Origin: SAR324 cluster bacterium
Lineage (GTDB): Bacteria; SAR324; NAC60-12
DNA length: 64,000 bases
Assembly: GCA_014382365.1 (NCBI GenBank)
Contig: JACNJW010000028.1
Coordinates: 1-64,000 of the forward strand
Reading direction: 5' to 3'
Positions 50,991-53,890 of the stretch are shown here, in pieces; positions within the stretch are counted from its first letter, which is position 1, and every line of letters starts with the position of its first letter. The notes below the pieces were generated by a model. That model had not been told where the DNA came from and searched no databases. It saw only the letters and a program-made list of their open reading frames with translations. A program made the translations under genes and the position numbers.

Positions 50991-51031
50991 TGTACTTCTC
51001 TTTTTTTGTTTTTTAACAAGATTTACAAATA

Positions 51032-51057
51032 TTTTTTTGACAGGATTACGAGATTAA
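51032..51057 (+). repeat. Short dispersed repeat, copy C
   Basis: TTTTTTTGACAGGATTACGA followed by GATTAA. It lies between the DUF2867-like gene and the hydroxylase large subunit, 2 bases after the former's stop codon. With copy D, in opposite orientation, it brackets that gene. Confidence 0.75.
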
Positions 51058-51059
51058 CA

Positions 51060-51599
51060 TCAGTTATTTTTTTCTAAATACTTTGTCATCCTTTTTAAAA
51101 TTTTTTTCATATATAATTTATGGAATGGGCGAACAAAAAAGAAATATATTTTACCAAATATATTATGAAATTTTACTATTGTTGCTAGTTCTATAATAGA
51201 GTTATTGTTTTTTATATAACTAATAAACGATAGATTAAAATCCAAATGTCTATCCGTTTGTCCGGTCAACAATTCAATATCGTTTTTTTCTAAAACCTCA
51301 AAAATTGCAATGCTATCTCCAATATTTCCTTCAAATCTATCCAGTAATTTATTTCTTTCATCATTTGTTATTTCATTCGCAGTTTTTAAACCTAATTTTT
51401 TAGCAATAATTTCTCTTGTTATAATCAATCTCGTTAATAACGGAGGGAATGACCTAAAGAAGGCGATCATGCAATCTTTAGGTTGAGGAATCTCTCCAAC
51501 TACTTCTCTCGTTGATTGAAAAACGTCACAATAATCAAAATCTTCAATATGCCTCGCAATCAATAATTCATTATTCAATTCAACTTCAATTATATCCAT
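51060..51599 (-). CDS. DUF2867-like protein, probable insertion in the hydroxylase operon
   Basis: A 179-residue protein. HIEDFDYCDVFQSTREV, the LTGQTDRHLDFNLSFI strand and the final FHKLYMKKILKRMTKYL are like DUF2867 proteins, whose function is unknown. The gene is much more AT-rich than the hydroxylase genes around it. It is flanked by inverted copies of the GACAGGATTAC repeat (51032 and 51664). It therefore looks like an insertion between the Fe-S and Mo subunits, with its own AT-rich upstream region. Confidence 0.65.
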   Translation of the reverse strand: MDIIEVELNNELLIARHIEDFDYCDVFQSTREVVGEIPQPKDCMIAFFRSFPPLLTRLIITREIIAKKLGLKTANEITNDERNKLLDRFEGNIGDSIAIFEVLEKNDIELLTGQTDRHLDFNLSFISYIKNNNSIIELATIVKFHNIFGKIYFFFVRPFHKLYMKKILKRMTKYLEKNN

Positions 51600-51663
51600 T
51601 GCTGTCTTGTATAATTTAAACTAAACAAGAAGACAGGTGAATAAGTTGTAGAATCATATCTTG

Positions 51664-51687
51664 TTTATCCTGTAATCCTGTCTAAAT
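51664..51687 (-). repeat. Short dispersed repeat, copy D, forming the end of a gene
   Basis: TTTATCCTGTAATCCTGTCT, the reverse complement of the repeat. It overlaps the 3' end of the 2Fe-2S subunit gene and supplies its stop codon and last residues (DRITG). This suggests the original gene end was replaced when the repeat arrived. Confidence 0.7.
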
Positions 51688-52141
51688 TTTTTACATCCAT
51701 CACCGCCTCTACGATTTTGGCATATCCGGTACAGCGGCAGAGATTTCCGGAAAGAGCATGCCGAACTTCGGACTCGGTCGGTTGCGGATTTTCCCGTAGC
51801 AAAGCCAGGCTGTTCATCACCATTCCGGGAGTGCAGAATCCGCATTGAATGCCGCCCTTCTCGACCATGCTTTGTTGCAAAGGATGCAGTTTGTCATCCT
51901 GCTGAACACCCTCGACTGTGGTGATTTCCGAGCCTTCGCAATCCGCCGCCAGCACCAGACATGAAGTTACCGGCTCACCGTTCAAAAGCACCGTGCAGGC
52001 TCCGCAGTCTCCACCGCCGCAGCCCAAATGCACCCCCATCAACTCCAAATCTTCACGCAACATTTTGAGCAAGGTTTTGCGGGTATCCAAATACAATTCT
52101 TGTTTGACACCGTTGATGGTGCAGGAAATTATTTTTTTCAT
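51665..52141 (-). CDS. [2Fe-2S] subunit of a molybdenum hydroxylase
   Basis: A protein of about 158 residues from the ATG at 52141 (a TTG at 52147 is less likely). The plant-type cluster motif is GGGDCGACTVLLNGEPVTSC. The second cluster motif is GIQCGFCTPGM followed by GNLCRCTGYAKIVEAV. Typical of xanthine dehydrogenase/CO dehydrogenase small subunits of about 160 residues. Electrons pass from Mo through these clusters to FAD. The last residues derive from a dispersed repeat. Confidence 0.92.
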   Translation of the reverse strand: MKKIISCTINGVKQELYLDTRKTLLKMLREDLELMGVHLGCGGGDCGACTVLLNGEPVTSCLVLAADCEGSEITTVEGVQQDDKLHPLQQSMVEKGGIQCGFCTPGMVMNSLALLRENPQPTESEVRHALSGNLCRCTGYAKIVEAVMDVKNLDRITG

Positions 52142-52148
52142 ACTCAAT

Positions 52149-52988
52149 TTATTCTAATTTTTTTAAAGCAGTAAACTTAACACTGGCCACTTTTCCTTCG
52201 ACTAGCAGACGATCTTCCTCGCTGGGAGGAGGAGTAAATTTGTCCCCGGGACAACAAGCCATTGCCTCCAGTTCTTCAGGTGTGAGATTCTGTTTTGCCA
52301 CAATCTTAATTTTTGTAAAACCGCTACTTTTCACTGTTTGCCAATAATCTTCTTCAGAAATCGCACCGCCTAAACATCCTGACCAAGTTGATTGAAACCG
52401 CTGGTGTAATTGTGAGTCTATTCCTTTTGTGAAAACAATGTCTGAAATAGCCAGCCGTCCGCCGGTTTTTAGTAACCGAAATGCTTCTTTATAGACGGCA
52501 TCTTTGTCAGGACAAAGATTGATGACACAGTTGGAAATTATAACATCAGCAAAACAGTCGGCAAGTTGCGTTTTCGTCAAATCGGCAACAAGGAGTTCAA
52601 TATTTCTTTCATGAAATCCGGCATCAATTACAGATTGTTTGGCCCGTTCAATCATTTGTGGAGTAAAATCGACTCCAAAAACACAGCCGGTTTCCCCGAC
52701 TTTAATAGAAGTCAAAACCACATCAATTCCACCACCGCAACCAAAATCCACGACCACTTCACCTGTTTTTAACTTGGCAAAACCAGTGGGATTACCGCAG
52801 CCACGGGAAAGATTAAGCGCAGACTTTGGCACAGAATCAAGGTCTGATTGACCATAGAATCCAGAATCAATTGCATAGCCAGAACCTGGCTGCCGTTTGC
52901 TCATTCAACAGGATTCCTGATTCCCACCGCTTTCTGCGAAGTCGCCATAGCGGATTTGTACTAACTGTTTGATTTCATCAGTTCTCAT
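52149..52988 (-). CDS. ArsM-like SAM methyltransferase with in-frame UGA; candidate selenoprotein
   Basis: The uninterrupted frame starts at 52904, but the 28 codons upstream are in frame and family-like. The ATG at 52988 has a GAGGG ribosome binding site and encodes MRTDEIKQLVQIRYGDFAES, then GGNQESC. A UGA follows at 52907-52905 and then MSKRQPGSGYA. ArsM-type enzymes begin in this way and usually have a CC pair at this point, so the motif becomes Cys27-Sec28. A SECIS-like hairpin follows at the right distance. The rest is intact: VDFGCGGGIDVV (motif I), and Cys residues in SRGCGNPTG, ISNCVINLCPDK and SGCLGGA, like the arsenite-binding Cys. The end has MACCPGDKF. If Sec is not inserted, only the 251-residue product from 52904 is made. 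Confidence 0.75.
52873..52893 (-). promoter_or_regulatory. Candidate bacterial SECIS hairpin
   Basis: In the mRNA sense the sequence AGCCAGGTTCTGGCT forms a 6-bp stem with a GUU loop, or a 5-bp stem with a GGUUC loop. It can be extended by two GC pairs past a bulge. Nineteen bases separate the UGA from the GUU loop. Bacterial SECIS elements, as I recall, need a G in the first two loop bases and 16-37 bases of spacing, and the E. coli fdhF loop is GGUCU. All these conditions are met. Confidence 0.6.
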
Positions 52989-53050
52989 TTTCCCTCGGAA
53001 TTGTTCATTCGTAGAGTTGATTTGTTTTTGATTTTTCACTCCTTAACCAA

Positions 53051-53890
53051 TCATAAAAGAGCCTCCAAATTTCGTCTGACGTGAATTTTTATCATCCGTT
53101 TTCTGTACCAGGCAGAACCGCGAATGTCATCAATAGGTGAGCATTCATCAGCCGCCATTTCGCCTGCTTCCAGCATTAGTTTTGGTGTCAATGTTTTTCC
53201 GGTTAACAATGCTTCAGTCTTTTTAGCACGCAAGGGAGTCGGTCCAACTGCACCTAAGGCAACACGGGCTTCACGGACCATTCCTTGATTTTTCTGTAAT
53301 CTGACTGCAACACCAACCACTGCCAAATCCATGAATTGACGTGGTGCGTGTTTACTGTAAAACATGTTTCCGGAAGGTTGAGGAAGAAAAAGTGATAATA
53401 GAATTTCTCCGGATTTTAAAATGGTTTTACCCGGCCCTTTAAAGAAATCAGCCAAGGGAATATCACGTTGACCGTCACGACTGACAATGTGTGCCACAGC
53501 ATCCAGAGCCAGCAAAGGCGGTATTAAATCTGCACTTGGAGAAGCGTTGCAGATATTACCACCAACTGTAGCCAGCGAACGAATTTGCTCAGAAGCCACA
53601 ACACTTGCTGCATAGACAAGACCCGGGAAATGCTTTTTAAGCTCCGGGGATCGCGTTATCCCCCGCAAGGTCATTCCAGCACCAAGCCGGAACCTAGCCT
53701 TACGAGTCGCAAATCCCCGCAACTCCTCCACATTCTTCAAACTTATTACTGTATCCGGCTGAGCCGAACCTTGTTTCATTTGCAAAAGTAAGTCAGTTCC
53801 TCCGGCAATTAGTTTTGCTTTTGGTATTGACTGCAACAGATCAAGAACTTCTCCAACAGAATCCGGAGCAAAATGTTCAAAAGGTTTCAT
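53051..53890 (-). CDS. FAD-binding subunit of a molybdenum hydroxylase (CoxM type)
   Basis: A 279-residue FAD subunit. The first FAD motif is AKLIAGGTDLLLQMKQG (about 29-45) and the second ATVGGNICNASPSADLIP (about 106-123). It lacks the [4Fe-4S] loop found in 4-hydroxybenzoyl-CoA reductase beta subunits. It is the promoter-proximal member of the hydroxylase operon, now separated from the [2Fe-2S] gene by the methyltransferase. The 146-base gap up to the methyltransferase frame is largely explained by that gene's extended N-terminus. Confidence 0.9.
   Translation of the reverse strand: MKPFEHFAPDSVGEVLDLLQSIPKAKLIAGGTDLLLQMKQGSAQPDTVISLKNVEELRGFATRKARFRLGAGMTLRGITRSPELKKHFPGLVYAASVVASEQIRSLATVGGNICNASPSADLIPPLLALDAVAHIVSRDGQRDIPLADFFKGPGKTILKSGEILLSLFLPQPSGNMFYSKHAPRQFMDLAVVGVAVRLQKNQGMVREARVALGAVGPTPLRAKKTEALLTGKTLTPKLMLEAGEMAADECSPIDDIRGSAWYRKRMIKIHVRRNLEALL

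Follow-up and report, generated by a model that had tools for sequence, protein, structure and literature searches.

A predicted ArsM-type methyltransferase with selenocysteine in an N-terminal Cys-Sec pair

Introduction

Arsenite methyltransferases (ArsM) containing selenocysteine (Sec) have already been catalogued, with Sec in a UxxG motif (PRK11873/NF008823, review PMC13188914). A GOS table comprises eight Sec-ArsM sequences and gives no motif for them. Three further NCBIfam selenoprotein models, NF041536 (ArsM_DUF2284_UU), NF041537 (ArsM_AhpD_UU) and NF047649 (MTase_UXPK_star), share a related methyltransferase domain. The first two describe ArsM fusions with profile lengths of 459 and 345, and their listed motif is UxxG. 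In human AS3MT, an enzyme without Sec, the N-terminal redox residue Cys32 forms a disulfide with Cys250, which reductants open prior to catalysis (PMC4211708). The hairpins that direct Sec insertion in bacteria (bSECIS) follow published rules: a loop of 3-9 nt, a stem of 4-16 bp, a G in the first two loop positions, a distance of 16-37 nt from the UGA and an MFE of at most -7.5 (PMC13188914).

Here we analyze a gene in a stretch of 64,000 nucleotides from a SAR324 cluster bacterium, referred to as the window (Table 1). Its predicted product belongs to the same methyltransferase family as the catalogued Sec-ArsM proteins, and in both cases Sec replaces a conserved Cys. The position differs: Sec would be residue 28, the second of an N-terminal pair, whereas the UxxG position of the window protein and of its UGA-containing homologues is Cys205 (GCLGGA), with no Sec there. 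In two relatives from the phylum (L065, L066) the UxxG motif reads TGUIAGAL and lies at window residue 205. The three related models score the window protein of 279 aa with 132-153 bits, compared to cut-offs of 460-575, and the protein stays below the cut-off of every NCBIfam selenoprotein model. The first-pass annotation of the window stated that a CU form of the enzyme is not known to have been characterized. This holds for the position of Sec, which is not the listed UxxG, but not for Sec-ArsM as such, which is known (PMC13188914). As far as the sources tell, with the motifs of the GOS proteins not given, Sec at an N-terminal CU pair is apparently unreported. It would represent a second Sec position within the ArsM family, and the role of the N-terminal cysteine becomes directly testable.

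Two side observations concern other members of the family. In L065 and L066 Gly replaces two of the arsenic-ligand cysteines (GTGNP, SNGVVNL), which makes their naming as arsenite methyltransferases doubtful. In L087 (G280:C153:20899-21696) an ArsM-like frame ends with CCCCS and a UGA, after which the frame continues into a second methyltransferase-like domain; this may be a Sec fusion or a pair of neighbouring genes.

Table 1. Features of the methyltransferase locus, with positions in the window.
Feature	Position	Strand	Basis
Predicted selenoprotein gene, ArsM-type SAM methyltransferase, 279 aa, Sec at residue 28	52149..52988	-	single TGA; 61-71% identical TGA homologues; NCBIfam match
GAGGG ribosome-binding site	52992..52996	-	direct reading; 3-nt spacer to ATG 52988-52986
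N-terminal 27 codons, usually lost in annotation	52908..52988	-	purifying selection equal to rest
Predicted Sec UGA codon (residue 28)	52905..52907	-	ten homologues share the UGA; Cys in nearly all without it
Predicted bSECIS hairpin	52873..52893; core stem 52891-52877, loop GUU 52885-52883	-	folding, conservation, published rules
Putative lateral insert, ~912 bp, between coxM and coxS	52149..53060	-	synteny with empty site in same-genus genome G019
coxM-like FAD subunit of molybdo-hydroxylase, upstream neighbour	53051..53890	-	NCBIfam XdhB-type matches
coxS-like [2Fe-2S] subunit, downstream neighbour	51665..52147	-	NCBIfam XdhC-type matches

Results and Discussion

The UGA codon and its homologues

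The first-pass annotation had described an ATG behind a GAGGG motif, followed by 27 codons, a UGA and the remainder of the enzyme in the same frame, and all of this is seen directly in the sequence. Direct reading and translation of positions 52988 to 52149 on the minus strand give a frame of 279 residues plus stop. It consists of 27 codons for MRTDEIKQLVQIRYGDFAESGGNQESC, the only in-frame UGA as codon 28, and 251 codons in frame that end at the TAA at 52149. The output of a mechanical ORF caller is just the 251-aa ORF from ATG 52904.

A scan of a species-genome collection for homologues led to 35 loci. In all of the nine most similar ones (L019-L027, 62-71% identity), column 28 is TGA, preceded by Cys and with Pro-Ser behind it, and their hosts include Chloroflexota, Thermodesulfobacteriota, Rokubacteria and others. 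A tenth UGA homologue with 61% identity (L086) was found in a search of 395 genomes from the phylum of L020. All ten, from several phyla and 61-71% identical, contain a single UGA in the identical column, within C-U-P-S. In nearly all homologues lacking the UGA, column 28 is Cys. The annotation had placed the UGA on the second Cys of a CC pair and named this very alignment as a check beforehand; the outcome agrees with it. On the tree one state change suffices for the eleven UGA proteins, on a weakly supported branch (66/77), and the end branch of the window copy is long (0.35). Searched viral contigs contained no relatives, and all relatives on the searched plasmids had less than 60% identity (38-43% among the matches listed).

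The assembly behind the window is a draft in 71 contigs, which would be compatible with a sequencing error at the UGA or with a pseudogene. This is refuted to near certainty, because homologues that were assembled independently, from several phyla, have the UGA at this codon and no other in-frame stop, and purifying selection is seen on both sides of it. For codons 2-27 the pooled pN was 0.23 and the pS 0.95; for codons 29-129 these values were 0.22 and 0.82. As both ratios are alike, the codons that precede the UGA are under the same protein-level constraint as codons 29-129. A genome-wide recoding of UGA was also considered and is ruled out, since TGA ends 7 out of the 16 window genes examined.

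Hairpin and selenocysteine machinery

The annotation had further noted a stem-loop with a GUU or GGUUC loop 18-19 nt after the UGA. It is present and conforms to the published bSECIS constraints: the stem AGCCAG-GUU-CUGGCU has 6 bp, the GUU loop lies 19 nt past the UGA (or 18 nt, counting it as a 5-nt GGUUC loop), and the energy is -9.1 kcal/mol. Taken alone, the window hairpin has a z-score of -1.7, and 14 out of 200 shuffles are equally good. The single-sequence folding z-scores in the window range from -0.2 to -1.7, which is weak, and the hairpin of one sequence alone would be weak evidence. An Rfam scan of the 64-kb window gave no family at the gathering threshold.

The comparison of homologues adds to this. 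Five core pairs are kept in 11 out of 11 sequences, four of them invariant, and the fifth is C-G in ten sequences and A-U in the window copy. The change from CCC/UCG to CCA/UCU is synonymous on both sides. This compensatory pair by itself is modest evidence, because a shuffle control attains one such change in 39 out of 500 cases. Within codons 4-128 the lowest synonymous variation is found in the six codons 32-37 (0.15 compared to a mean of 0.46, sd 0.09), and for codons 34-39 the P value against random sets of six codons is 0.0016. Together with the recurrence of the UGA at one column across ten further genomes, this synonymous minimum at the hairpin lifts the observation above chance.

All genes sought for Sec incorporation, selA, selB, selC (tRNA-Sec) and selD, are present in the genome of the window. 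Family searches gave 506 bits for selA, 394 bits for selB and 356 bits for selD, and the tRNA-Sec scored 55.6 bits, above gathering. Among the genomes of the UGA homologues L019-L027, selB exceeds the cut-off in 8 out of 9, compared to 0 out of 5 tested genomes of homologues without UGA. The selD of the window's genome (L088, G000:C41:74670-75593) has its own in-frame TGA (CGU-AAK), behind which lies a hairpin; its GGUC loop begins 17 nt past this UGA. SelD thus resembles the methyltransferase in its Sec UGA, nearby hairpin and GGU-type loop, although it is an unrelated protein and its loop lies 17 nt instead of 18-19 nt after the UGA.

The ATG directly behind the UGA needs separate consideration. 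It occurs in the window copy alone; in each of the ten UGA homologues the codon at this place is CCN (Pro), so that the base next to the UGA is A in the window copy and C in the others. An additional restart product from 52904 is possible due to this peculiarity. In the organism of the window the UGA might even mainly terminate, with a restart that yields a 251-aa enzyme free of Sec, either as the only product or together with an ancestral Sec form. Such a restart would fit the adjacency of UGA and AUG, which is confined to this copy, as well as the long end branch and a weak AGGA that precedes the ATG by about 10 nt. However, this AGGA belongs to conserved codons and is also seen where homologues lack the ATG, the hairpin was altered by a compensatory pair and has not decayed, codons 2-27 are constrained like the remainder, and the Sec machinery is complete. 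We regard predominant termination as quite improbable.

We propose with high confidence, from the comparison of sequences, that Sec is inserted at residue 28 of an ArsM-type enzyme. SelB carrying Sec-tRNA would bind the hairpin, the loop of which lies 19 nt after the UGA, and the product would possess a vicinal Cys27-Sec28 pair near its N-terminus. The earlier suggestion of a selenoprotein whose start is mis-set to 52904 is supported by column 28, the Sec genes and the bSECIS-compliant hairpin. Gene starts in the UGA clade are prone to such systematic mis-setting, by which Sec and the first 28 residues become hidden.

Fold, substrate and a potential role of the pair

The best NCBIfam match of the protein is arsenite methyltransferase (NF008823, residues 2-240), with 236 bits below the cut-off of 263. 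C64, C154 and C205 align with the arsenic-ligand cysteines C72, C174 and C224 of CmArsM. A structure model reached a pLDDT of 90 and a pTM of 0.90, and each of its 13 best PDB matches is an ArsM or AS3MT structure. The protein shares the fold (TM-score by query about 0.65-0.69) and the three arsenic-ligand cysteines with CmArsM and human AS3MT, but these lack Sec and have only about 27% sequence identity to it.

Since the fold and the three ligand cysteines are kept, a trivalent arsenical, bound by the thiols of C64, C154 and C205, would be the likely target of a SAM-dependent methylation. Arsenic as the substrate is what we infer from these conserved residues. The enzyme may instead act on another soft substrate, for example a different metalloid, a thiol or a selenol. 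No arsenic genes adjoin the gene in the neighbourhoods examined, acr3 was sought in the window's own genome and not found, and the score under the ArsM cut-off points in the same direction. This alternative, which leaves the selenoprotein assignment intact, is nevertheless unlikely, though it carries some weight: all three arsenic-ligand cysteines are kept, the solved structures nearest in fold are without exception ArsM or AS3MT, and acr3 is above the cut-off in 7 out of 10 genomes with UGA homologues.

The N-terminal pair may have a redox function. The Sec/Cys argument, which is used for finding catalytic redox cysteines, points to a redox-active pair. By analogy Cys27-Sec28 could be the counterpart of Cys32 of AS3MT, for a segment that lies outside the sequence alignment and in an N-terminal loop of low model confidence (pLDDT 55-58). 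Cys32 pairs with the remote Cys250 (PMC4211708), whereas the pair in the window protein is vicinal. The pair could reduce the oxidized enzyme or a pentavalent intermediate via a selenenylsulfide, which a cellular thiol reductant would reset. We consider this the most likely role, at about an even chance. The wider proposal is slightly less likely: a laterally spreading ArsM-like clade might carry Sec in the N-terminal redox pair and not as an arsenic ligand, with the selenenylsulfide driving the reductive step of arsenic methylation.

Genomic context and probable lateral origin

In the same-genus genome G019 coxM adjoins coxS, and the 912 bp with the gene are missing. Among 51 other genomes of the phylum no close homologue was found, the best matches having at most 44% identity. 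The homologue L024 lies in a different context, a 2-oxoacid oxidoreductase region, where the next gene downstream encodes a POR subunit. The empty site, the lack of a close homologue in the phylum and the different context of L024 point to a lateral acquisition of the gene, which now lies within a molybdo-hydroxylase operon; it would have arrived in the window lineage by lateral transfer. Contamination of the contig was considered and is ruled out, as both flanks are syntenic with the same-genus genome at 73-85% nucleotide identity.

Two further observations concern neighbouring genes. A DUF2867 gene (51060-51599, minus strand) between coxS and coxL is missing at the same site of G019 and has surroundings (50991-51664) with 27% GC; it is a putative second insert in the operon that contains the methyltransferase gene. 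The next downstream genes of L026 (3924-4616) and L027 (2501-3193) encode very similar proteins, and that of L026 matches Pfam MtrA (tetrahydromethanopterin S-methyltransferase subunit A).
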